IMG/VR virus record: IMGVR_UViG_3300011244_000004
Location: 1 to 38,942 of that record
Reading direction: 5' to 3' (one strand)
Origin: a virus
DNA: 38,942 nt
The notes under the pieces are model-generated. The model had not been told where the DNA came from. It saw nothing but the letters and a program-made list of their open reading frames with translations, and searched no databases. A program made the position numbers and the translations under genes. This document shows, piece after piece, positions 15,457 to 34,810 of the stretch. Numbering within the stretch: position 1 is the first letter of the stretch; each line of letters starts with the position of its first letter.

Positions 15457-15484
15457 GGGAACGTCTCCCTTCTCTGGAAACTGT

Positions 15485-15540
15485 TAAAATAAGACATAAG
15501 AAATGCCGGCGCGCTGCTGAAACAGCCGCCGGCGTGGCAC
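15485..15540 (+). ncRNA. Structured leader of HNH cassette 1
   Basis: TAAAAT (15485-15490) is a likely -10 box. A hairpin at 15505-15533 follows: GCCGGCG, bulged C, GCTG, loop CTGAAA, CAGC, CGCCGGC, then GTGGCAC. The leader of the second HNH cassette (23184-23242) has the same lengths, bulge and flanking GTGGCAC but different paired bases, with compensatory changes in both stems. The start codon is 27 bases past the stem. It is likely a cis-acting RNA controlling the nuclease message. Confidence 0.6.
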
Positions 15541-15560
15541 CTGTCACGGGAGGTGACGAG

Positions 15561-16247
15561 ATGCAGGGAAAGCGTACCAGGGCGCCGGGCACGGTTCGGC
15601 GCATCTGCCAGCACTGCGGCGCCGAGTTCTTCGTCCACGGCGTTTACCCCGGCTCGAACGACGGCAAGTACTGCTGTCACGCCCACTACGCGCTGGCAAA
15701 GACACGGCCGTGGCTGGAGCGGTTCTGGGCCTCTGTGGACAAGACGAGTAGCCCACACGGGTGCTGGCTGTGGACACCCAAAGGCGAAAACCGGGGCTAC
15801 GGCACGTTCACGAGTCCGCAGATCACCCCCCGAACGCAGATGGCGCATCGGCTCGCGTGGAAGGTACTGCGGGGGCCGATCCCAGAAGGGGGCATGGTGC
15901 TCCACCGCTGCGAGGCGAACTACGCGCCCGGGGATGTCACATACCGGCGGTGTTGCAACCCTGAGCACCTGTACCTCGGGGATCACGCCGCCAACATGGC
16001 CGATCGGGTGCGGAGCGGCCGGGGCTCCCAAGGGGCACGGCACAACACGGTCACGCACCCGGAATTGGTGCCTCGAGGACAACGGCACGGATGCGCCAGG
16101 TTGACCGATGCCGACGTGATGACGATGCGTGCTCGCTATGCGGCCGGAGAGAGCGCCGCTGCCCTCAGCGAAGCGTTCGGCGTGCACCTCCGAACCGCGT
16201 TTCGCGTCGTCCGCCGCGAGCGATGGCAACATCTTCCTCCTTCGTAG
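15561..16247 (+). CDS. HNH homing endonuclease (cassette 1)
   Basis: This 228-residue nuclease is encoded against the direction of the late operon. An N-terminal zinc knuckle (CQHCGAEFF...CCHAHY) is followed by a domain shared with the 23262 HNH protein (FWASVDKTSS..CWLW, TQMAHRLAWKVLRGPIPEGG, VLHRCEANYA...CCNPEHLYLG) carrying the HNH metal residues. The C-terminus ends in an HTH (MRARYAAGESAAALSEAFGV). ATG 15561 has GGGAGGTGA upstream. The gene, its leader and promoter form a self-contained mobile cassette inserted at the start of the tail-fibre gene. Confidence 0.88.
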   Translation: MQGKRTRAPGTVRRICQHCGAEFFVHGVYPGSNDGKYCCHAHYALAKTRPWLERFWASVDKTSSPHGCWLWTPKGENRGYGTFTSPQITPRTQMAHRLAWKVLRGPIPEGGMVLHRCEANYAPGDVTYRRCCNPEHLYLGDHAANMADRVRSGRGSQGARHNTVTHPELVPRGQRHGCARLTDADVMTMRARYAAGESAAALSEAFGVHLRTAFRVVRRERWQHLPPS

Positions 16248-16280
16248 CGTGGTAGTCAGAGCCATGTCTCATCGCTCCTT
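16248..16280 (-). pseudogene. Displaced original 5' end of the tail-fibre gene
   Basis: On the minus strand AAGGAGCGATGAGAC precedes ATG 16265 and the codons for Met-Ala-Leu-Thr-Thr-Thr, after which the frame runs into the antisense of the HNH gene exactly at the HNH stop. The intact fibre gene at 15456 begins with the same six residues, encoded by different codons. This is best read as the pre-insertion start region. A ribosome starting here would read 272 codons antisense to the HNH gene and stop at 15447, ten bases inside the fibre gene. Confidence 0.65.
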
Positions 16281-16284
16281 GTGG

Positions 16285-17541
16285 TCACCAGGCCAGGGTG
16301 CCGGTGCCCAGTTTTCCGTAGGTGGCGTGTCCCAACCGCCAGTAGTTCGCGGCCGCGCCGGTCGGGGCCTTGGACACCCCCCAGGTGCAGGTGTGGATCT
16401 GGCCCTGCTCCGAGATGCTCCAGGCGTGGGACACCCGCTCGATGAAGAAGTCCGTGGCGGTCAGCCCTTTGGTGCCGGGCAGGGTGTGCGTCACCGTGAT
16501 CCGGTCGCCCACCTCCCGGCCCAGGATGTGCGGCCACAGCGTCGTCCGGTTCGCCTGGGCGTCCAGCCCGATCGCGCGGATGCGGGATACCGGCTGCTCC
16601 TGCGCGGTCAGGATGGCCTGGGCGAAGCTCTTGCGGGCGCCGTCCTCGCCCAACTGCTCGGCCACGTCGTCGGACACCGTGTAGGGGACGTTGCCGTGCT
16701 CGCGCTGGCTGGCGGCGTCGGACACCACGTAGCTCGTGCTGTCCTGCAGTCGGATGGACACCTCGTTGGCCAGCCCCTCCTCGGTGTAGGCCCCCTCGAC
16801 CAGCACCACCGGCAGCGCCGTCCCCGCGCCGAACGTCCCGCTGGAGGTCACCGTCTGCCGGTAGTACCGGGAGTGGAAGACGGCGGTGCCGTCCCCCCGG
16901 ATAAAGAAGTTCCCGCGCTCGGCCTGGATGATCTGGTCGAGGTGCTGCAGGGCGGACACGCCGTCCAGCGTCTTGCCGGGGAGGATCAGGTAGCCCGCGG
17001 TGAGGGAGCGCTTCAGGTAGGGCCAGTCCAGCTCGTCCAGGACGGCGCCGATGCGCACGTCGGTGCGCTGCGCCGGGAACGTGCGGGTGAGGGTGCGCCG
17101 GGCGAGGCGCTTGAACAGGTCGGTGAACCCCACCCGGACGGACGCGCCCAGCGCCGTGGGGGACGGCTCGTAGGCGTCGGCGAAGCCGTACCCGAGCGTG
17201 TAGGTCACGCTGTTCCACACCGCCTGCGCCCGCCCGCGCTTGTTGAGCCGGACGTAGGGGTAGTACCCACTCCCCGTGTGCTCCGGGTCGAGCGCGCCGT
17301 CGTCGTCGTCCAGCTGCATCGACAGCGTCCCGGCGGCCACCCCGCTGCCCGCGTCGTCCCGCCCGTGCGTGGTCTCGAAGGCGTAGAGCCGGGTTTGCAC
17401 CGACGTCCAGTCGGCGTCCAGGACGTCGCCCGCCAGCTTCCCCGTGCCGAGCTTGCCGTTGGTGGCGTGGCCCAGCCGGAGATAGCCCGTGTAGGGCGGG
17501 TTCAGGAGCAGATGAGCGTGGTAGACGGGATAGGAGGCCAT
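16285..17541 (-). CDS. Minor tail protein (tail tip / hub)
   Basis: This 418-residue structural protein follows the tape measure directly, the place of distal-tail or hub proteins. Its middle (residues ~85-360) is beta-rich (VGFTDLFKRLARRTL, FFIRGDGTAVFHSRYYRQTV, VGDRITVTHTLPGT). The same motif closes both ends: RLGHATNGKLGTGKLA at ~22-37 and RLGHATYGKLGTGTLA at ~402-417. This suggests paired strands or a duplicated oligomerisation element. ATG 17541 abuts the tape-measure stop. The exact family was not identified. Confidence 0.7.
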   Translation of the reverse strand: MASYPVYHAHLLLNPPYTGYLRLGHATNGKLGTGKLAGDVLDADWTSVQTRLYAFETTHGRDDAGSGVAAGTLSMQLDDDDGALDPEHTGSGYYPYVRLNKRGRAQAVWNSVTYTLGYGFADAYEPSPTALGASVRVGFTDLFKRLARRTLTRTFPAQRTDVRIGAVLDELDWPYLKRSLTAGYLILPGKTLDGVSALQHLDQIIQAERGNFFIRGDGTAVFHSRYYRQTVTSSGTFGAGTALPVVLVEGAYTEEGLANEVSIRLQDSTSYVVSDAASQREHGNVPYTVSDDVAEQLGEDGARKSFAQAILTAQEQPVSRIRAIGLDAQANRTTLWPHILGREVGDRITVTHTLPGTKGLTATDFFIERVSHAWSISEQGQIHTCTWGVSKAPTGAAANYWRLGHATYGKLGTGTLAW

Positions 17542-20500
17542 CTAGGGGAGCGCCCCCCCGACGCCGTTGGCCCCCGCGTTGACGGCGGCGAAGCGGCGGG
17601 TCTCGGACCGCTGCAGCCGGCCGACCACCTGCCCGTTCATGACCACGGACAGGCTGGCGATGGCCCGAGCCAGGGCCTCGTAGTCGATCCCTTGGCCGGC
17701 CGCACCGCCCCGGATGGCCGCTAGCTGGCCGGGAGTGAAGATCCCCTCTCCGCCGTGGACGACCGCGTTCCGCGCGACCCCGAACGGGCCGGGCACCATC
17801 CCGCCCTCGGCGTACTCGTACCCGGTGGTGGAGTCGCTATTGTTGCCCCCGAAGATGTCCCGCGACGTCGAGTTGCTGCTGCCGTAGGCCGCCTCGGGGT
17901 AGGTGTCACCCCACGCCAGCGGGTCGAACCGGCCGATATTGGCCCGCCAGTAGGCCGTGTCCGGCACCGGCGCGTAGTAGCCCGGCCCCGTCGGCCGACC
18001 GCCGATGGAGTCCATCCCGGTCGGGCCCGGCATCCCGGCCTGGGCCGCGTTCCCGAGTTCGGCGGCGTGCTCCCGCTCCCACTTCGCCCGGTCGCCCCCG
18101 AACATGTCTCTGACCGCTTGGGGCTGGTTCTCCCAGGTGGCCCCACCACCTCCGGTGGCGCCCGGCCCGCCGCCCTGGCCCACGCGAGCGACGGCCTCGG
18201 CCGCCCGCGACGCGGCGCCCACCACCTCTTCCAGCCGGGAGAGCACCCCGCCGATGAACCCGTCGAGGGCCGTCATGCCCTCTTCCGTCATCGGCCCCAC
18301 CTTGTCCAGGAACTTCTCCTTGAGGTCTTGCGCCTTCTGGGTGTAGCTCTTGCGCAGGGCGTCTTGCTCCTTCTGCTCCGTCTCGATGATCTTGGCCAGC
18401 TTGTCGTTCATCGCCTTCGTGATGGCCGCCACGCGGGTGTCCCGGTCGGCGTTGGTGCGCACCGCGTTGCGGGCCAACGCTTCGTCCTCGAGGTCGTCGT
18501 TGAACTTCTGGGCGTCGGCCTGCTGCTTCTTCTTGAAGTCGGCGGCCACGACGTCGGCCGCCCGGCGCTTGGCCAGGTCGGCGGTCGCCTTCTTGAACGA
18601 CGCCTCCAGGGCGGTCGCGTCGGCCTTGGCCTTCCGGTCGCGTTCGTCGTCGTCCAGTCGGCGGGTGCGGTCGCGGTCCTCCCGCGTGCGGGCGAACTTG
18701 ACCGCCAGCGCGGCCCGAGCGTCGTCGTCCTTGGCGTCCAGGAGGTCCTGGTTGAGCCGGTACTCGGCGTCGGCGTCCTCCCGCTCCCGCTTGCGGTCGA
18801 CGTCGGCCGCGGACTCCTCCACCCGCAGGCGGCGGTCGGCCAGCTGCTCGGCCTGCTTGACCAGCAGATCGGCGTCGTCCCGGGCCTGCTTGAACGCCTG
18901 TCCGGCGGCGTCCTGCCCGGTAGCGAAGTCCGCCCGGCGCCCCCGGATGCCCCGGTTGAGGGTCTGGGCGTCCAGCGCGTCCTGGATCTTGTCCCGCGCC
19001 TTGTCCAGCTCGGTCTGGACGTCCTCGGCGCCCTTGCGGATGGTCTCCTGGGTGGCGTCGTACGCCTTCTGGGCGATGTCCGCCGACTTCGAGGACGTCT
19101 CCCGCTCCAGCGTCTCCAGCCCCCGGGCCAGGTCGCGCATGGCCTCGCCCCGCACCAGCGCCGTCTTCTCTTCGGCGGCGCGCACGGCGTCCATGCCGTC
19201 CAACTGGAGGTCGTAGAGCTTGTCCTCCAGGCCGGCGGCCAGATCGGTCATCCGGCGCCCGTGGTCTTCTTGCAGTTGGGCGATGCGCTCGTTGACCCCC
19301 ACGCGCTCCTTGACCGTGGCCCGCGCCGCCTCTTCGCGGAGGTCGGCCAACTTCCGGTCGAAGGCGCGTTGTTCTTTGTCTTGCGCCCGCTGGTGCATCC
19401 CTTCGGCGTCCTCCTGCTTCTGCAGGGAGGCCATCTGGGCCTGCTCCACCAGCGTGTACGTCTTGGCGAACTGCGCGCCCAGGATCGTGCCCAGGTTGGC
19501 GAAGGCGGCGGCCGACTGCGCCTCGGCGGTGTCGCGGACGCTCGCCAGCAACTCCTCCACCGCGGCCACGGCGGCGGCGGCCTCCCCGTCGATGCCGACG
19601 ACGAAGCCCTCCACCGTCTGCTCGCCGATCTCCTCGAACACCTTGGAGGGGGAGCCGATGTTGAGGAGGTCTTTTGCGGCCTGCACGGCCGCCGCGGCCA
19701 CGTTGCGGGCCGCCGTCTTGACCCACTCCAGGCCGGCGTTGATGCCGTTCTTGATGCCGTCCACGATGGCGGTGCCCACCGACAGCGCCGCCGAGGCGAC
19801 GACGGGGCCGTAGCCCCGGAGGAAGGCGTCGATCTCCTTGATCTTGGTGATGACCGCTTCCACCGCCGGGATGACGTTCTCCTTGATGACCTTCCAGGCC
19901 GTGTCGACGGCGTTGCGGAACGTCTCGTTGCTGTTGTAGGCGGCCACCAGCATCCCGATCAGGGCGCCGATGGCCACCACGACGATGCCGATGGGGTTGG
20001 CCGTCAGGGCGGCGTTGAGGAGCCACTGGGCGGCGGTCATGGCCGCCAGGCCGAGGGCGGTGCCGAAGGCCGCCGCCCCGGCCAGGGTGGTCTGCACGAC
20101 CAGGAGCGTGAGGAGGCCCGCCGCGATCCCGGCGGCGGCGCCCATCACCTGGAGGCCGCCCTGCGTGCCGGCCAGCCACCCGACGGCTTTCTCGGCGGCC
20201 TGGGCGACGGCGTTGACCACCTCGGCGGTGGCGGAGAGGAAGCCCTGCGCGCCGTCCGACGCCTCGCCCGCCGCCGCGATGTTCTCCGCGGCGCCCGCGA
20301 GGTGGGGCAGCGAGGCCGCCACCGCCTCGCCGATGGTGTCGAAGAGCCGGCCGATGATCTCGCCCGTGGGGGCGAAGTCCGCGAAGGCGCCCTGCACCGC
20401 CGAGATGACGGGGGTGAGCTGCCCCGTGAGCCAGTCGACGGCCGTGCCGCCGGCCTTGACCACCAGATCCATCGCGTACGCCCAGTCGCCCCGGACGGCG

Positions 20501-21558
20501 TTGAGGGCCGCCCGCCCGAGGTCGGCCACGATGCTGCCGGCCGTGCCGAACGAGTTGTCCAGGAAGTCCAGGGCGTCCACCGCAGCCTGCTCGAGCCCGT
20601 TCATGGCGTTGGCCCAGTCGCCGTGGACCGCCGCCAGGGCCGACGCCGCCAGGGTGGCCACGATCGGCCCGATGGGCTGCAGGAACTCGACCAGGCGCCC
20701 GATGGCCCCCGCGGCCACCCGCACCCCTTCGGCCAGGAAGTCGCCGAGGTTCGTGGCGAAGGCGCCGACCGCTTCGCTGTTGGTGGCCAGCCAGCCCGAC
20801 ATGGCGTCCAACTGTTCGCCGAGGGCCGCCAGGATGGGCTCTCCCACCTTCTGCTGGATGCCGGCGAGGGCGTCCTGGAAGGTGGAGAACCGGCCCGCGG
20901 TCGTGGCCGCCAGTCCGGCCACCAGATCCATGTCGGCGCCCATCTCTTTGAGCGCCCGGCCCACGATCTCGGCGTTCGGCACCCCCTCCGCCTTGAGGCG
21001 GTTGATCAGCTCGCGGGGGATGTTGAACCGCTCCATCACCGAGACGAAGTCGCCGGAGAGGGCCTCGCGCAGGGCGAAGGCCGCGCCCTCCAGGCCCTGC
21101 GCCGGGTTCAGGGCCGCCAGGATCTCGGCCTGCTGGACCAGCCCCATCAGCCCGCCGGTGGCCGACTTCGACGCGGGCAGCAGCATGGACGCGGCGTTCG
21201 CCATCTCGTTGAAGGCGAACGGCGTCTTGTCGGCCTCGGCCCGCACCTGGGCCAGGATCTGCGCCGTGGCCCCCGCGTCCTTGGTGAAGGCGTTCATGCG
21301 CCCCGTCACCTGCTCGAAGTTGGAGGCCAGCCCCACGCCCAGCACCCCGCCCAGCCCCGACGCGGCGCCGGCCACGGCGGCGATGCCCTGCGCCGCCAGC
21401 CCGATGGTGCCCAGCGCGGCCGTCAGCTTCCCCACCGCCCCGATGGGGCCGGAGACGGCGCTGCCCAAGCCGCCGAGGGCCTTCTGCACGGCGCCGATCG
21501 GGCCGGAGGCGTTGTCCTTCCCCTGTAGATCAACTACTACCTGGGCGACGCTCGCCAC
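17542..21558 (-). CDS. Tail tape measure protein
   Basis: This 1338-residue protein sets tail length and is ejected with DNA. The order of regions is typical: an Ala/Gly-rich N-terminus with the phage tape-measure repeat region (FNEMANAASMLLPASKSATG), central hydrophobic membrane segments (around residues 465-540, AAGIAAGLLTLLVVQTTLAG), then a very long coiled coil rich in Lys/Glu/Arg (about 680-1130), and a Gly-rich C-terminus. At ~1.5 angstrom per residue the tail would be about 200 nm (inference). GTG 21558 has GGAGGG upstream. A 1257-codon open frame on the opposite strand is a composition shadow. Confidence 0.9.
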   Translation of the reverse strand: MASVAQVVVDLQGKDNASGPIGAVQKALGGLGSAVSGPIGAVGKLTAALGTIGLAAQGIAAVAGAASGLGGVLGVGLASNFEQVTGRMNAFTKDAGATAQILAQVRAEADKTPFAFNEMANAASMLLPASKSATGGLMGLVQQAEILAALNPAQGLEGAAFALREALSGDFVSVMERFNIPRELINRLKAEGVPNAEIVGRALKEMGADMDLVAGLAATTAGRFSTFQDALAGIQQKVGEPILAALGEQLDAMSGWLATNSEAVGAFATNLGDFLAEGVRVAAGAIGRLVEFLQPIGPIVATLAASALAAVHGDWANAMNGLEQAAVDALDFLDNSFGTAGSIVADLGRAALNAVRGDWAYAMDLVVKAGGTAVDWLTGQLTPVISAVQGAFADFAPTGEIIGRLFDTIGEAVAASLPHLAGAAENIAAAGEASDGAQGFLSATAEVVNAVAQAAEKAVGWLAGTQGGLQVMGAAAGIAAGLLTLLVVQTTLAGAAAFGTALGLAAMTAAQWLLNAALTANPIGIVVVAIGALIGMLVAAYNSNETFRNAVDTAWKVIKENVIPAVEAVITKIKEIDAFLRGYGPVVASAALSVGTAIVDGIKNGINAGLEWVKTAARNVAAAAVQAAKDLLNIGSPSKVFEEIGEQTVEGFVVGIDGEAAAAVAAVEELLASVRDTAEAQSAAAFANLGTILGAQFAKTYTLVEQAQMASLQKQEDAEGMHQRAQDKEQRAFDRKLADLREEAARATVKERVGVNERIAQLQEDHGRRMTDLAAGLEDKLYDLQLDGMDAVRAAEEKTALVRGEAMRDLARGLETLERETSSKSADIAQKAYDATQETIRKGAEDVQTELDKARDKIQDALDAQTLNRGIRGRRADFATGQDAAGQAFKQARDDADLLVKQAEQLADRRLRVEESAADVDRKREREDADAEYRLNQDLLDAKDDDARAALAVKFARTREDRDRTRRLDDDERDRKAKADATALEASFKKATADLAKRRAADVVAADFKKKQQADAQKFNDDLEDEALARNAVRTNADRDTRVAAITKAMNDKLAKIIETEQKEQDALRKSYTQKAQDLKEKFLDKVGPMTEEGMTALDGFIGGVLSRLEEVVGAASRAAEAVARVGQGGGPGATGGGGATWENQPQAVRDMFGGDRAKWEREHAAELGNAAQAGMPGPTGMDSIGGRPTGPGYYAPVPDTAYWRANIGRFDPLAWGDTYPEAAYGSSNSTSRDIFGGNNSDSTTGYEYAEGGMVPGPFGVARNAVVHGGEGIFTPGQLAAIRGGAAGQGIDYEALARAIASLSVVMNGQVVGRLQRSETRRFAAVNAGANGVGGALP

Positions 21559-21612
21559 TACCCGAGCCCTCCGACCGAGGGCGGCCGTACCCGGAACGCA
21601 ACCGCCACGGCG

Positions 21613-21668
21613 TACAGTGGGAGGGTCCGGGGGCGCTCGAGCGCCCCCGGACGGAAAGAACAGACGAG
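21613..21668 (+). promoter_or_regulatory. Promoter-like box and perfect palindrome before the lipoprotein
   Basis: TACAGT (21613-21618) could be a -10 box. A perfect 28-bp palindrome follows (arms GTCCGGGGGCGCTC at 21625-21638 and GAGCGCCCCCGGAC at 21639-21652), 16 bases before the ATG. The RNA would begin with a very stable hairpin. The layout (box, hairpin, start codon) repeats that of the two HNH cassettes, though the hairpin sequence differs. Confidence 0.5.
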
Positions 21669-22031
21669 ATGTGGCGCGGACTGCTGCTTGCCGTAGGACT
21701 GGTAGCGCTGTTGAGTCAGGCGGGGTGCGGCGACGGAGGGCCGGGGGCCGCGAAGCCGTTGGCCGTCGTGGGGGAGCCCCTGGTGACGCGCCCGAACCCG
21801 ACGACGGTCATGGCCGCCGGCCGGGTCAAGAACAGCGCGCAAGGAGTCATCTCCGGCATCGTCACCGTGACCCTGTTCGGCGCCGACGGGAAGATCGTCG
21901 GCACGGCGCAGGGCGCCGCCAACTCGGTGGCCCCCGGCGATGAGGTGACCTACCAGGCCATGGGGATCGTCACCGCCGACGCGCAGTGGACGCGGGTCGA
22001 GGCGAAGGTCACCACGCAGTTCGCCGGCTAG
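21669..22031 (+). CDS. Putative lipoprotein moron with FxLYD-like domain
   Basis: This 120-residue protein is encoded against the late operon, between the tail chaperone and the tape measure. It begins with a lipoprotein-type signal (WRGLLLAVGLVALLSQAGC, Cys20; the lipobox is imperfect because Gln stands at -3). The mature part (VMAAGRVKNSAQGVISGIVT, VTLFGADGKIVGTAQGAANS, VAPGDEVTYQAM) matches the FxLYD beta-sandwich pattern seen in bacterial lipoproteins. A membrane-anchored lipoprotein expressed from its own promoter in a prophage often alters the host surface or blocks superinfection. That role is inference. Confidence 0.7.
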   Translation: MWRGLLLAVGLVALLSQAGCGDGGPGAAKPLAVVGEPLVTRPNPTTVMAAGRVKNSAQGVISGIVTVTLFGADGKIVGTAQGAANSVAPGDEVTYQAMGIVTADAQWTRVEAKVTTQFAG

Positions 22032-22803
22032 CGTGCGGGCGTGGATGGCCGGCGGCGTTCCCGCTCCGCCTCCGCCTCGCCCTCCAGCCGCATAATCAGC
22101 AGCGCCTCCCGGATCTCGCCCACCGGCGCCTCGTCTACTTGCCAAGGGGGGACGTGCCAGCGCGCGGCCAGCGTGGCGCGGATGTAGCCCCACGGCACCG
22201 GTAGGCCCGCCTTGCGGCTGGCGCGCATCCATTTCTCTAGCGCCGCCTGTTCCCGCGGCGAATGAAGTTTGGGAGTTCTTCCGCCGCCTGCTTCTGCAGG
22301 GCGATGACCGCCGTCGCCAGCTCGGTGGGGATGCGCTCCCAGAAGGAGAGGTCCGAGGGCTGGGGGAGCAGGCTCCCGTCGAAGTCGGTCCAGCCGTTGT
22401 GCCACAGCACCACCTTCGAGAGGGCGGCGCGCATGAACTGCTCGCGCTCGTCCACCCAGGCGTTCAGCTCCTCCAGGGTGGCGCCCTGCTCGGGGTCGGG
22501 CCGGTCGCGGAAGGAGTTCCCGGCCATGTCCTGCTCCAACCGCTGGGGGTAGTTGACCCACAGGCGCACCTTGAAGCCGGGGTACTCGGGCACGTCGCGC
22601 TCGACCTCCCGCCGCCGGAGTTGGGGGCCGGCGGCGGGAGCCGCGCCCGCGGGTGCGGGAGCGGAGGCGAGAGGAACGGCGACTACCGTCGCTGGGGGGG
22701 CCGACGGCGGTAGCCCCTGGTGTGGCACCGCCCCGTTGCCCTGCGGCTCCTGCGCGGGGTCATCGGCCCGCTGCTCGATGACGACGTCGTACGCTTGTGA
22801 CAC
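22028..22803 (-). CDS. Tail assembly chaperone gpGT (-1 frameshift product)
   Basis: A -1 slip at CCCAAAC (22273-22267) joins 179 codons of gpG to a 79-codon second frame ending at 22028, giving 258 residues. The second-frame part (REQAALEKWMRASRKAGLPV...RWHVPPWQVDEAPVGEIREA) is well formed and has no start codon of its own. This matches the conserved gpG/gpGT arrangement of long-tailed phages, in which the longer form is made at low frequency and recruits the tape measure for tail tube assembly. Confidence 0.85.
22237..22803 (-). CDS. Tail assembly chaperone gpG
   Basis: This 188-residue protein is the unshifted product. It has a Pro/Ala-rich N-terminus and a conserved-looking domain (PGFKVRLWVNYPQRLEQDMA, LEELNAWVDEREQFMRAALS, VVLWHNGWTDFDGS). 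The start is GTG 22803, with AGGAGGG upstream; ATG starts further up fall in the spacer. The position between tail tube and tape measure is the standard one. Confidence 0.8.
   Translation of the reverse strand: MSQAYDVVIEQRADDPAQEPQGNGAVPHQGLPPSAPPATVVAVPLASAPAPAGAAPAAGPQLRRREVERDVPEYPGFKVRLWVNYPQRLEQDMAGNSFRDRPDPEQGATLEELNAWVDEREQFMRAALSKVVLWHNGWTDFDGSLLPQPSDLSFWERIPTELATAVIALQKQAAEELPNFIRRGNRRR
22241..22273 (-). other. Programmed -1 frameshift signal
   Basis: The heptamer C CCA AAC (22273-22267) is in the correct register of the gpG frame. Six bases later a hairpin CGCCGC (22260-22255), loop of 8, GCGGCG (22246-22241) provides a typical stimulator. The gpG stop (TAG) follows at once. Confidence 0.85.
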
Positions 22804-22935
22804 AGAAAAGCCCTCCTCTTGGTGTGAGAAGGGCCACTGAGGGCCACAAGCGGTGTGTGAGCAGTGCTGGTCCGGACCGGCTGGTCTCAATACGCAACCG
22901 GCACGCGAGGGCCGCTCCGAACCAGCCCGCCACCC

Positions 22936-23160
22936 TCAGTCTAGCACGACCGGTTCCGGGTCGCCGCTCTCGTTCGAGTGACCCGACTTACACCGGATGT
23001 GCCAGGGGCGGGCGGCGCTTTCGGCCAGCACGCGCCCGCATTCCCAGCACCTAGGACGATGGTCAACCACGAGTTGCCACGCCCCCGGGCGCACCTCCGC
23101 CGTCTGGAGCGGCCGACCCTTGGGGTCGGCCCGTGGGGCGGGCGCTACCGGGGGAGACAC
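22936..23160 (-). CDS. Zinc-ribbon small protein between tail genes
   Basis: Up to 74 residues. The C-terminal part CWECGRVLAESAARPWHIRC then KSGHS is a CxxC...C..H zinc site resembling small Com-like phage proteins. GTG 23160 lacks a good ribosome site; an internal GTG at VRPGAW follows GGAG closely. The HNH cassette lies directly upstream and may have removed the native start. The 132 bases from its stop to the gpG start contain no gene that I can see. Confidence 0.5.
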   Translation of the reverse strand: MSPPVAPAPRADPKGRPLQTAEVRPGAWQLVVDHRPRCWECGRVLAESAARPWHIRCKSGHSNESGDPEPVVLD

Positions 23161-23183
23161 GGCGCGCCCCAGGGAGCGGATGG

Positions 23184-23242
23184 TAAAATAGGGGGGTAGA
23201 GAAGTGCCGCCGCGGTGTTGGAAGCACCCGGCGGCGTGGCAC
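23184..23242 (+). ncRNA. Structured leader of HNH cassette 2
   Basis: TAAAAT (23184-23189) is followed by a hairpin at 23206-23235: GCCGCCG, bulged C, GGTG, loop TTGGAAG, CACC, CGGCGGC, then GTGGCAC. The architecture equals that of the leader at 15485-15540. The paired changes (G-C to C-G in the lower stem, C-G to G-C in the upper stem) keep the pairing. Confidence 0.6.
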
Positions 23243-23261
23243 TCACGGATGGAGGTCCGCT

Positions 23262-23870
23262 GTGCAGAATGAGTTTACCGAGTCCGACCGCGCCCGCTTT
23301 TGGGCGAAGGTCGACAAAACCCCCACCTGTTGGCTCTGGCGTGGCGGGTTCTTCAACGCCGGGTACGGCTGCTTCTTCCTGCATGGTCGGTCTCAGATGG
23401 CCCACCGGATCGCCTGGCAGCTGCTCCACGGCCCGATCCCCGACGAGACGCCCTGTGTGCTGCACCACTGCGACGTGAAGGCGTGCGTTAACGCCGAGCG
23501 GTGTCTCTTCTTGGGGACGATGGCTGACAACATGGCGGATCGGGACGCCAAGGGACGGCAGGCGTCCGGCGACCGGAGCGGCGCCCGCCTCCACCCCGAA
23601 CGTCTCCGACGGGGCGACAATCATCCGCTCCGCCTCAATCCAGGAGCCGCCGCCCGCGGTATCCGCCACGGCTCGGTCACGAAGCCGGGGCAGGTCCGGC
23701 GCGGTGAGACGCACGGTCGGGCGCTGCTGACGGACGACGACGTTCGGGCCATCAGAGACCAGTACGCCCAAGGCGGCATCAGTCAGGCCGCCCTGGGCGC
23801 TGCGTACGGCGTCGATCAACGAACCGTCAGCCTCATCGTGCTCGGCAAGGGATGGAAACACATAGTCTAA
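23262..23870 (+). CDS. HNH homing endonuclease (cassette 2)
   Basis: This 202-residue paralogue of the 15561 nuclease shares ARFWAKVDKTPTCWLWRGG, SQMAHRIAWQLLHGPIPDET, VLHHCDVKACVNAERCLFLG (the HNH core) and a C-terminal HTH (IRDQYAQGGISQAALGAAYG). GTG 23262 has GGAGG upstream. It is encoded against the late operon, immediately downstream of the tail tube gene, and the two genes converge with only 9 bases between stop codons. It lacks the extra N-terminal zinc knuckle of cassette 1. Confidence 0.88.
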   Translation: MQNEFTESDRARFWAKVDKTPTCWLWRGGFFNAGYGCFFLHGRSQMAHRIAWQLLHGPIPDETPCVLHHCDVKACVNAERCLFLGTMADNMADRDAKGRQASGDRSGARLHPERLRRGDNHPLRLNPGAAARGIRHGSVTKPGQVRRGETHGRALLTDDDVRAIRDQYAQGGISQAALGAAYGVDQRTVSLIVLGKGWKHIV

Positions 23871-23880
23871 GACTATGTGT
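23858..23880. terminator. Palindrome at the HNH2 / tail-tube junction
   Basis: ACACATAGTCT and AGACTATGTGT are perfect 11-bp inverted repeats around a single A (23869). They span the HNH stop codon and reach the last base of the tail tube stop. The repeat is AT-richer than its surroundings and symmetric, so it could work as a bidirectional terminator, although no T-tract is present. It could also mark the cassette boundary. Confidence 0.5.
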
Positions 23881-31886: not shown

Positions 31887-33512
31887 CTATCGCCTCCCGA
31901 ATTGCCCGTTGGCCGGCGGGGCCTGCCCGTTCAGTGGGGGCGACGGTTGGCCGAACGCGCCCGGACCACCGGGCGGCATCGCCCCCCGGTCCAGGGCGGT
32001 CAGCAGTTTGTCGGCCGCCTGCTCGGCGTCGGCTTCCTCCTCTTCGGCCATGGCGTCGATCTCCCCGTCGGACAGCCCGAGGTCGCGCTGTACCTGCTTC
32101 TTCGACCACCCGAGCTGCAGGCGCAAGATGGCCGCCTCGGCCGCCGCCTTGTCCGCCTCGGCGTCCGACAGGGGGTCGGGCGGCAGCACCGGCCGCGGGG
32201 CGAAGGTGTGCATCAGCAACCCGGCCTCGTAGGCCCCCTCACCGAAGCCCTCGAAGCCGGAGATGCCGGACGCGGCGCCCACGGAGAGGGCCATCATGTG
32301 CGCCCGCTGCAGGGCCCGGTCGGCGTTGCCCCGCGCCCGGCGGCAGCGCGCCACCGCCGGCGCCAGCAGCTTCTCTAGCGCCCGTCCTGAGAGTTCGGTA
32401 GCCCCGCTCAAACGGCTCCAGATCATCTCCGGGAAGTCCGCCGCCACGGCCGCCTCGTCCCCGTCAAGGGCCGCCTGGTAGGCGGCGTAGTCCAGTTGGG
32501 CCACCAACTGGCGGAGCGTCCAGCCCCCCGGCACGCGGAAGAACCGCTCGTCCCCGATCGTCACCACGCCGTCGGCGTCGGTCACCTGGGGCGCCGGCAT
32601 CGGCCGCCCCGAGGGGTCTTGCCCGGCCCGCTCTAAGGCCCAATCCGGGTGGTTGTGGTTGAACAGCAACTGCGAGGCGCGGGTGGCCTTGCGGTTCAGC
32701 TCATCGAACTTATCGAGCCCCCCCTCAAAGCAGGAGGAGCCGCGTTCGCCGCCCCCGTCCTCGAAGCGGGCCTGCACGAAGGGAACGAAGTCCACGCCGT
32801 AGGCCGAGAGGGGCAGCACCTCATCAGGGGCGCCGAGGTCTCCGAGGGGTGTATCCGGGTTCCACTTGTGAACCCAGCGCCGATAGACGCCGGCGGATTT
32901 GGACCAGTGCTCGGTGTGCCAGCGGTCCTCCGGGACGACGCGGGTCGCAGCCGGCGCGTTGGTGTAGTCCGCCAGGGGGACGTCGAGCCGCAGCGTCTTG
33001 ACGTGGCCCCGCTCGCTGGTCACGTCGGTGACCCACTGCGGCTTCACTTTCTCGAGGTACACGGCGTCCCGCTCCGGGGGCTGGGCCACCCGCAGGAAGA
33101 GGTCGCCGTGCAGGGCCAGCCACAGGGCACAGACGTCTTTCTCGGCCGCCCAATTCGACCATTCCCACACGCGCCGCAGGGCCGCCTCGACGGCCTCCTG
33201 CTGGCCCGCAGCGAGCGTATCCGGGAACTCGAGGGGGAAGGCTTCGTCCAGGTCGCCCGGCCACAGGTGGGCCTGGTAGAAGGCCGTGATGCGCTTGGCC
33301 GGCGTGCGGATGCCTTTGAGCGCCTCCTGCTTGACCCCTTCGTCCCGAGTGAACTCCGCCAGCCAGTCATACAATGCGTTGTTCTGGTGGTACGCCTCGA
33401 CGAGGTCGTAGTAGTGGCGGTGGCCCACCGCCGAGGACGCGGCGGCGTTGAGGCGGGCCAGGGTCAGGCGGTGGGTGTCGGGGGTGCCCCAGAGGGCGGC
33501 CAGCGCACGCAT
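31887..33512 (-). CDS. Portal protein
   Basis: This 541-residue ring protein forms the DNA gate of the capsid. The pattern is that of siphovirus portals: an N-terminal region DLVEAYHQNNALYDWLAEFT, wing/stem regions (WSNWAAEKDVCALWLALHGD, YLEKVKPQWVTDVTSERGHV), a long helix (FEGGLDKFDELNRKATRASQ), and an acidic C-terminal helical part (LGLSDGEIDAMAEEEEADAE). The ATG at 33512 is coupled to the large-terminase stop. Confidence 0.88.
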   Translation of the reverse strand: MRALAALWGTPDTHRLTLARLNAAASSAVGHRHYYDLVEAYHQNNALYDWLAEFTRDEGVKQEALKGIRTPAKRITAFYQAHLWPGDLDEAFPLEFPDTLAAGQQEAVEAALRRVWEWSNWAAEKDVCALWLALHGDLFLRVAQPPERDAVYLEKVKPQWVTDVTSERGHVKTLRLDVPLADYTNAPAATRVVPEDRWHTEHWSKSAGVYRRWVHKWNPDTPLGDLGAPDEVLPLSAYGVDFVPFVQARFEDGGGERGSSCFEGGLDKFDELNRKATRASQLLFNHNHPDWALERAGQDPSGRPMPAPQVTDADGVVTIGDERFFRVPGGWTLRQLVAQLDYAAYQAALDGDEAAVAADFPEMIWSRLSGATELSGRALEKLLAPAVARCRRARGNADRALQRAHMMALSVGAASGISGFEGFGEGAYEAGLLMHTFAPRPVLPPDPLSDAEADKAAAEAAILRLQLGWSKKQVQRDLGLSDGEIDAMAEEEEADAEQAADKLLTALDRGAMPPGGPGAFGQPSPPLNGQAPPANGQFGRR

Positions 33513-34810
33513 CAGACGTCTCTTCTCTGCCCCGGATCATCGGGGCTGGGGCTCTCAATGACGGCGCGCCGGCCCTGCACCCCTTCGGCGAGGTAGTGCT
33601 CGAGCCATTGGACGAGTTGGCTGAAGGCGTCTACTTGGTCGTCATTCGCCGCTGACGGGAAGTCGAATAACTCCTGCTCGAAACTGTGCAGCCAGGGCAC
33701 CCGCTCTCCCGGCACGGGCAGGCGCACCGCTCCGGCGGCGCACCATACCGCCGCCTGGCTGGCCCGCTGCTGCTTGCTGCCGATGGGCATGAAGGCCACC
33801 AGCCGCTGCGACTCGCCCGCCGGGAGGACGGAGGCCAGGGTCTGGTAGGCGCTGGTGCCGCTGCCCTTGTCCTCGATGATCTCGCCCAGGAGCTTGCCGT
33901 CGGCGTTCCACTTCTGGCGCATGCGCCCCATCTGGGGCAGGAGGTTGGGGAACGCCAGTCGATCGCGCCACACGTCCACCACCCGCAGGCGGTAGTCGCT
34001 GCCCAGTTCGCCCACGACGCAAGCGCAGTAGTCGCTGGTCTCTTTGTCCTTCAGGCCCGTGTCCCAGGAGATGTACCGCCCCACGATCGTCAGGGGCGGG
34101 ACGGTCGCCGCCGGGTCGTAGCGCGTATCCTGGAACTGCTCCCGGGTGTAGATGTCGAAGGCGTCGGCCACGAACTCGGCGTCCCACTCCTGCCGAAAGA
34201 CGTTCTCCGGGACGCGCGTCTTGGCTAGCTCGTACGCCCGCTTGATGGTGGGCATGGGGTTGGCACTCGACGGCGCGCTGAACGAGGCGACGTCGGCGTC
34301 CATGTGCAGGATCCCGCGCTGCCACTCCCGCCAGTACCAGTTCCGCCCGGCCGGAGTGCTGATCAGGATGGCGTCGCCGTCGTAGTCCGCTAATGCGGGC
34401 TGCACCACGTCCGTCCAGGTGGTCTCGCCGATGCGGGCCGCTTCCTCCAGCACGGCCAGGTGGAACGCCTCCCCCCGCAGGCCGACGTCGTTGTCCCCGG
34501 AGTACACGCCCAGCGACCCGCCGGTGTGGGGGAACTCGACGGTGCGGTCGGCCCTGCTCAGGGTGACCGCCTTCTCTCGCACCAGCGGCCCCACGGCCGT
34601 CTCGATCCAGCGCCACACCGGCCGGGCGTTGCGGTACGTCGGCACCACCCAGGCCACCCGTGCGCCATCCGACGCCGACGCCAGAGCGATGGCGCCGGCC
34701 ATGACCGTCTTCCCAAATCTGCGGCCACATGCCACTACCTTGGTTTTGGCCGGGTGGGTGGCGATGGCCCACTGATCGGCCCGCAGGCGGGGCAGGTACA
34801 GGTCACTCAT
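33512..34810 (-). CDS. terL: Terminase large subunit
   Basis: This 432-residue packaging motor contains Walker A CGRRFGKT (residues 28-35), Walker B LAVLEEAAR (about 118-126), the coupling region ISTPAGRNWYW, and the RNase H-type nuclease residues ISWDTG, EDKGSGT and DDQVDAFSQL. All catalytic acids are present, so it should be active. ATG 34810 overlaps the small-subunit stop (ATGA). Confidence 0.93.
   Translation of the reverse strand: MSDLYLPRLRADQWAIATHPAKTKVVACGRRFGKTVMAGAIALASASDGARVAWVVPTYRNARPVWRWIETAVGPLVREKAVTLSRADRTVEFPHTGGSLGVYSGDNDVGLRGEAFHLAVLEEAARIGETTWTDVVQPALADYDGDAILISTPAGRNWYWREWQRGILHMDADVASFSAPSSANPMPTIKRAYELAKTRVPENVFRQEWDAEFVADAFDIYTREQFQDTRYDPAATVPPLTIVGRYISWDTGLKDKETSDYCACVVGELGSDYRLRVVDVWRDRLAFPNLLPQMGRMRQKWNADGKLLGEIIEDKGSGTSAYQTLASVLPAGESQRLVAFMPIGSKQQRASQAAVWCAAGAVRLPVPGERVPWLHSFEQELFDFPSAANDDQVDAFSQLVQWLEHYLAEGVQGRRAVIESPSPDDPGQRRDV

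Follow-up and report, generated by a model that had tools for sequence, protein, structure and literature searches.

The two HNH loci of the phage window

The window analysed here is the whole 38,942-nt stretch of the IMG/VR virus record IMGVR_UViG_3300011244_000004, of which an earlier note had covered positions 15485–23242. It described two related plus-strand HNH nuclease genes with a shared leader, consisting of TAAAAT, a bulged hairpin, GTGGCAC and a ribosome-binding site. Both hairpins were confirmed letter by letter and lie far beyond chance expectation. TAAAAT occupies 15485–15490 and 23184–23189, and the hairpins at 15505–15533 (GCCGGCG-C-GCTG-CTGAAA-CAGC-CGCCGGC) and 23206–23235 (GCCGCCG-C-GGTG-TTGGAAG-CACC-CGGCGGC) both lead into GTGGCAC, a ribosome site and a gene whose product was assigned to Pfam family HNH_3. 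The conservation, however, runs on beyond the part that had been noticed, taking in a second hairpin around the ribosome site and extending over the first codons. The evidence given below supports reading the two hairpins as terminators of predicted small RNAs on the minus strand, antisense to the nuclease genes, and not as leaders of these genes. The features of the two loci are as follows (R2 is a covariance model introduced in the next section).

15497–15564, minus strand: predicted small RNA 1, about 68 nt long and antisense in cis to the beginning of HNH gene 1 (R2 score 64.1 bits, E=6.9e-12; fold −37.8 kcal/mol)
15571–15579, minus strand: putative extended −10 box of small RNA 1, TGGTACGCT (TGG-TACGCT), placed by its aligned position, 6 nt upstream of the +1 G at 15564
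15537–15564, minus strand: 5′ hairpin of small RNA 1, with a CUCCC loop complementary to the Shine-Dalgarno (SD) sequence of the HNH gene and CAU, the complement of the start codon, in its stem
15505–15533, minus strand: predicted terminator hairpin of small RNA 1 (the hairpin described in the earlier note), preceded by a CAC linker and followed by the tail ATTTCTTA at 15504–15497
15482–15490, plus strand: putative extended −10 promoter of HNH gene 1, TGTTAAAAT, resembling TGnTATAAT in the phage copies
15561–16247, plus strand: HNH gene 1 (HNH_3 plus HTH), covered by the antisense RNA (Pfam HNH_3 4.5e-7, above cut-off; phrog_1872 2.5e-24)
23198–23265, minus strand: predicted small RNA 2, about 68 nt long and antisense in cis to the beginning of HNH gene 2 (R2 score 62.1 bits, E=1.9e-11; fold −33.8 kcal/mol)
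23272–23277, minus strand: putative −10 box of small RNA 2, TAAACT preceded by CGG, 6 nt upstream of the +1 G at 23265
23239–23265, minus strand: 5′ hairpin of small RNA 2, with a CCUCC loop complementary to the SD sequence GGAGG
23206–23235, minus strand: predicted terminator hairpin of small RNA 2, with the tail ACTTCTCT at 23205–23198
23181–23189, plus strand: putative extended −10 promoter of HNH gene 2, TGGTAAAAT
23262–23870, plus strand: HNH gene 2 (HNH_3), covered by the antisense RNA (Pfam HNH_3 6.4e-8; phrog_59 1.7e-22)

Both predicted RNAs begin opposite base 4 of the respective HNH gene and cover its start codon and SD sequence, while their promoters would sit within codons 4–7.

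Further copies in phages, plasmids and genomes

About 100 more copies were obtained from phages, Deinococcus plasmids, Chloroflexota and Actinomycetota. A pattern built from the two window leaders identified a third copy (L011), again upstream of an HNH gene, hairpin-only patterns together with a start-region pattern yielded some 40 phage copies, and blastn detected seven Deinococcus plasmid records in which a copy precedes tnpB (IS200/IS605). Carriers of these tnpB elements include D. wulumuqiensis, D. aquaticus and D. taeanensis. A loose pattern led by TAAAAT gave ten viral matches, nine of which were chance-like, and a looser version run across genome contigs provided no copy that was taken further. 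No credible copy was returned by a blastn search of the leader against cultured phages.

Two covariance models were used for the cellular genomes: R1 was derived from the gene strand and includes the promoter columns, whereas R2 (70 positions) represents the minus strand, begins at +1 and contains no promoter columns. With R1, 22 of 301 Chloroflexota genomes contained copies, as did 21 of 198 from the phylum of an Acidimicrobiaceae metagenome-assembled genome (Actinomycetota), and no match occurred in a 249-genome sample, drawn twice with largely the same members, from the phylum of an Undibacterium (G005, Pseudomonadota). R2 detected copies in 20 of 301 Chloroflexota genomes, in one of 179 genomes from the phylum of a Bryobacterales metagenome-assembled genome and in none of 179 from the phylum of Paenibacillus; the phylum assignments of both searches rest on the titles of the centre loci, and the E-values, derived from a short calibration, are rough. 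Several of the cellular copies without a gene (see below) scored higher with R2 than with R1 (47.5 vs. 42 for G132:C88; 46.9 vs. 34.6 for G049:C69). The covariance search that the earlier note had proposed as a check returned many covarying matches beside nuclease genes.

The terminase of the window (33512–34810) has its best match among the Chloroflexota genomes, with 36% identity (E=1.6e-47 in G115), and its best match among cultured phages has an E-value of about 4e-19, the two values coming from searches with different statistics. Furthermore, a phage contig in one Chloroflexota bin (G067:C155 = L361) contains the small RNA opposite an HNH gene. A Chloroflexota host appears likely for the window phage.

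Strand of the conserved RNA

The earlier note had concluded from compensatory base-pair swaps between its two hairpins that the structure is conserved more than the sequence. This was borne out by a first alignment of 21 sequences, in which 97.8% of the stem cells were paired, compared to 79.8% after shuffling, and nine of eleven pairs had changed on both sides. Covariation alone cannot assign an RNA to one strand, whereas the count of G.U versus A.C pairs can. Reading the stems on the gene strand, we counted 39 A.C against one G.T among the non-Watson-Crick pairs of hairpin 1 and 78 against three in hairpin 2, i.e., 117 against four for both hairpins together, these numbers being alignment cells and not independent events. 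Because an A.C on the gene strand corresponds to a G.U on the opposite strand, the RNA under selection would be antisense to the nuclease genes. The same bias was present in the phage copies and both cellular classes, and the few Deinococcus copies agree with it for hairpin 1. Since R1 was built on the gene strand, any bias introduced by this model runs against the antisense result. We regard the wobble count as the strongest evidence for the antisense strand.

Consensus folding of 40 copies with RNAalifold pointed in the same direction, predicting two hairpins with 19 pairs and −31.1 kcal/mol on the minus strand, 13 of these pairs showing double changes, versus one hairpin with 11 pairs and −22.1 kcal/mol on the plus strand. 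On the minus strand, 95.7% of the stem cells were paired (75.3% after shuffling), and the covariation score of 0.531 was not reached in any of 500 shuffles (0.141) or by the slid controls (at most 0.142).

Promoter, 5′ hairpin and terminator of the predicted small RNA

Although the encoded proteins are unrelated, the start region follows a conserved pattern, ATGC-N6-A-NNN-TACC. Among 102 aligned places, the three sense columns of A-NNN-TA are invariant (101/101, 102/102 and 101/101), and the letters between them are free. The opposite strand reads TAnnnT, in which the three fixed letters are the invariant ones of a −10 box; a G at −14 is usual and a T at −15 frequent. This results in an extended −10 motif TGnTAnnnT, followed by a 6-nt spacer and a near-invariant G at +1. 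T-12, A-11 and T-7 were present in 97–98 of 98 distinct copies. Because R1 contains the promoter columns, its weak matches were partly selected for them, and we therefore also quote the subsets found by patterns alone or by R2. The three bases were present in 22 of the 23 copies from hairpin-only patterns (chance per site 0.0066), and the box was exact in 13 of 16 readable R2-found loci, the other three containing a similar box displaced by 1–4 nt (a seventeenth listed locus, L376, lies at a contig edge and was left out).

The transcript would begin with the covarying 5′ hairpin, whose loop carries in most copies the complement of the SD sequence of the gene and whose stem holds CAU/GUG, followed by the CAC linker, the terminator hairpin and a T-rich tail. 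Of the 98 distinct copies, 63 have at least four T within the 8 nt after the hairpin when read on the minus strand, and none of the 98 has them on the gene side. Most copies start opposite the fourth base of an open reading frame (ORF), with ATG in 68 of 98, which makes the 5′ end of the RNA a complement of the start codon. As in cis-antisense small RNAs, the comparative evidence places the RNA on the strand opposite its target gene, and it is complementary to the translation initiation region. The earlier note was thus right in linking a structured RNA to the HNH genes but placed it on the wrong strand.

The minus strand of the window also carries the genes for the tape-measure protein, the terminase and other structural proteins. 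The terminators of both small RNAs (15505–15533 and 23206–23235) point along these genes, so that, barring read-through by the phage, they could exert polarity on late transcription. The suggestion that the hairpins shield the cassettes from antisense late transcription touches something real in this respect. Another inverted repeat, ACACATAGTCT-A-AGACTATGTGT at 23858–23880, is perfect over 11 bp and spans the stop codon of HNH gene 2; it resembles a terminator but has no clear T-run, and possibly represents the 3′ end of the cassette.

On the gene strand, the phage and Deinococcus copies have TAAAAT as the −10 box for transcription of the HNH gene; most cellular copies lack this motif. Extended −10 scores upstream of the phage copies averaged 9.07, compared to 6.33 for shuffled sequences, and those of the Deinococcus copies were 8.5 versus about 6.3, while the cellular copies only reached 6.9 and 6.5 versus 6.0–6.2. 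The phage and Deinococcus copies carry two opposed extended −10 boxes some 80–90 bp apart.

Genes lying opposite the small RNA

Among 38 ORFs opposite phage copies, there were HNH_3 (16), HNH (6) and GIY-YIG (2) genes, together with single cases of a serine recombinase, MTES_1575/DUF559 (Vsr-like), PD-(D/E)XK, endonuclease VII and NUMOD4-HNH. In the cellular and plasmid set of 32 ORFs, Cas1 (9), TnpB (6), SWIM (3) and HNH_3 (2) were found, and RepA_C, a resolvase and ArdC-N occurred once each. Most target proteins have 120–560 amino acids.

The Cas1 genes lie under the small RNA at L290, L292, L295, L316, L319, L320, L340, L341 and L353, and some of their products contain an N-terminal Cys-rich, zinc-finger-like segment. 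No CRISPR-like repeats were present in the five Cas1 neighbourhoods checked, and one copy adjoins genes for a type I methylase and specificity subunit (hsdM/hsdS). On the basis of these neighbourhoods, we refer to them as solo Cas1 and rejected their assignment as components of CRISPR loci.

Some further targets were recorded among the cellular copies. In the Actinomycetota set, the starts of small SWIM zinc-finger genes lie opposite the RNA (L325, L327 and L346, also L345 and L329). One copy faces a plasmid RepA_C gene (L308:1569–2510), which recalls the antisense RNAs of plasmid copy-number control, and another a 28-amino-acid hydrophobic peptide (L317, from 1568 onward), which recalls type I toxin-antitoxin pairs. 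Upstream of NifH-like genes, Chloroflexota have low-scoring copies (L303, L307 and L354) that lack the otherwise common linker; these may belong to a distinct but related element or be chance matches.

No ORF of at least 100 amino acids begins at the site in 26 of the 98 distinct copies, all of them cellular, although a few have an ORF in another register. The gene-less copies of Chloroflexota genomes include L294, L296, L297, L298, L300, L301, L304, L343, L344, L352 and L355; several of these are located near tRNA genes, a few hundred bases away at most, and have a third hairpin behind them. We consider the gene-less Chloroflexota copies as candidates for stand-alone, trans-acting small RNAs.

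Proposed mechanism and alternative explanations

These observations bear on the question of what prevents free-standing homing nucleases, TnpB and solo Cas1 from damaging their carriers. We think it quite probable that the element is a modular cis-antisense RNA with its own promoter and terminator, placed over the start of mobile nuclease genes, and that it probably keeps the covered genes switched down. An RNA of about 68 nt would be transcribed from the minus strand by the extended −10 promoter and would pair with the nuclease mRNA. Because the mRNA can be folded with its SD sequence in a loop, a first loop-loop contact between this hairpin and the anti-SD loop of the small RNA is plausible. 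Pairing would block ribosome binding, and decay of the duplex may follow; by likeness of design to art200, RNA-OUT, CopA and Sok (see below), we infer translational repression in cis. Expression of the DNA-cutting enzymes would thereby be held low and limited by dose, for example falling as the copy number rises, and copy-number-dependent silencing would be predicted for the Deinococcus tnpB elements. The same module is found attached to many unrelated mobile genes and, if this explanation is true, represents a shared, exchangeable control part over their start codons; its gene-less copies may act in trans.

Several observations weigh against this interpretation. Start, end and repressive effect of the small RNA are all predicted from sequence, and the invariance of A-NNN-TA in low-scoring R1 matches is partly due to selection by the model. 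No −35 element was found upstream of the −10 boxes, which are themselves often non-consensus (TACGCT, TAAACT). Some phage copies have a weak T-tract (21 of 42 reach four or more T in 8 nt), and in certain copies the 5′ hairpin, when assessed by itself, does not differ significantly from shuffled sequences. Since some cellular copies are gene-less, a purely cis-acting role cannot be the whole story.

A wider version of the proposal, in which one horizontally spread plug-in lock serves unrelated mobile nucleases while gene-less chromosomal copies of Chloroflexota and Actinomycetota silence incoming nucleases in trans and so protect the host genome, is speculative, and we consider it rather unlikely as a whole. 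Rather unlikely, too, is a trans-acting anti-SD small RNA of the cuckoo/CcsR type that addresses many host mRNAs and overlaps mobile genes because these are where it is carried. The C-rich loops (CCUCC, CUCC, CCUUAA), the two-hairpin architecture, the 26 gene-less cellular copies and a sub-threshold minus-strand match to CcsR1 in the window (13.7 versus a gathering threshold of 65.3 bits) would suit it, but trans action does not require the exact start opposite the fourth base of an ORF that most copies share.

Transcriptional interference by convergent promoters and a terminator, with the RNA itself being unimportant, agrees with the opposed −10 boxes of the phage and Deinococcus copies. We regard it as improbable because promoter collision does not need a covarying 5′ hairpin with an anti-SD loop, and because the opposing promoter is missing in most cellular copies.

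The original proposal of a plus-strand 5′ leader, i.e., a riboregulator delaying or tuning translation of the HNH mRNA, possibly as a switch between TGCC and GGCA, is consistent with the position of the covarying hairpin between the sense −10 box and the SD sequence in phage and Deinococcus copies and with an mRNA fold that places the start codon in a stem. It was rejected, and appears very improbable, because the wobble pairs are G.U on the minus strand only, which refutes the leader as the main selected structure. Moreover, the T-tract lies on the minus side only, the plus-strand consensus fold is weaker, most cellular copies lack the sense promoter but keep the other features, and copies without an ORF exist. 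The switch fails because TGCC is lost in copies such as L060:3038, L279 and L252:7509 while GTGGCA stays; the GCA of the latter has another partner, the TGC of ATGC, within the 5′ hairpin formed by the minus-strand RNA.

Finally, it is hardly credible that the hairpins belong to a DNA element by which nuclease cassettes move, for instance a recombination site or the end of an IS200/IS605-type transposon: this would fit the occurrence in Deinococcus tnpB elements and beside mobile genes and the imperfect, bulged hairpin, but the G.U strand bias, −10 box, +1 base and T-tract are features of a transcript, and a GCCTCCCGCAAGGGAGGC-like palindrome tens of bases further out in the Deinococcus upstream regions looks more like the end of the insertion sequence, for which reasons an IS605 end hairpin was put aside.

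Comparison with known RNA systems

As the earlier note had supposed, the element belongs to no named RNA family: none of the 4227 families of Rfam 15 matched the window at the gathering threshold, and a group I intron or other known RNA was rejected on this basis. Relaxed thresholds at the copies only gave sub-threshold or unrelated matches, and no description of this small RNA was found in the open-access literature. If the antisense interpretation is true, an RNA family is missing from Rfam.

Cuckoo RNAs and CcsR1 are trans-encoded stress RNAs of Alphaproteobacteria. Like the element, they combine an anti-SD loop on a 5′ hairpin with an intrinsic terminator downstream, whereas the copies described here mostly lie opposite mobile nuclease genes; membership in CcsR1 (RF02791) was rejected at the score given above (E=1.3 in a 501-base search). 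PtaRNA1 (RF01811) is a short (about 72 nt), horizontally spread cis-antisense RNA transferred by plasmids. One Deinococcus copy (L287) matched it over its full length, at the right place and on the right strand, but with 17.3 bits (E=8.4) versus a gathering threshold of 47 bits, and membership was rejected. No PtaRNA1 match was obtained in the window or at 18 further loci, and the target genes of PtaRNA1 differ from those observed here.

CopA, RNAI and Sok are antisense RNAs that present loops against the translation of a rep or toxin gene. They have no homology to the small RNA, the targets of which are mainly nucleases, TnpB and Cas1. Small toxic peptides, the targets in type I toxin-antitoxin systems, were not observed as a rule, and a 28-amino-acid hydrophobic peptide occurs opposite the RNA at L317 only.

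RNA-OUT of IS10 covers the start region of its target. No relation of the element to art200 or RNA-OUT was found in sequence or covariance. The art200 RNA of IS200 is an antisense RNA that pairs with the tnpA mRNA and promotes its decay (PMC12594629). Like both of these RNAs, the element described here would be transcribed antisense to a gene of a mobile element and reduce the expression of this gene. While art200 and RNA-OUT are each confined to one element family, we observed a single small-RNA family opposite many unrelated genes in at least three phyla, and the explanation we favour is a transferable small-RNA family distinct from RNA-OUT and art200.

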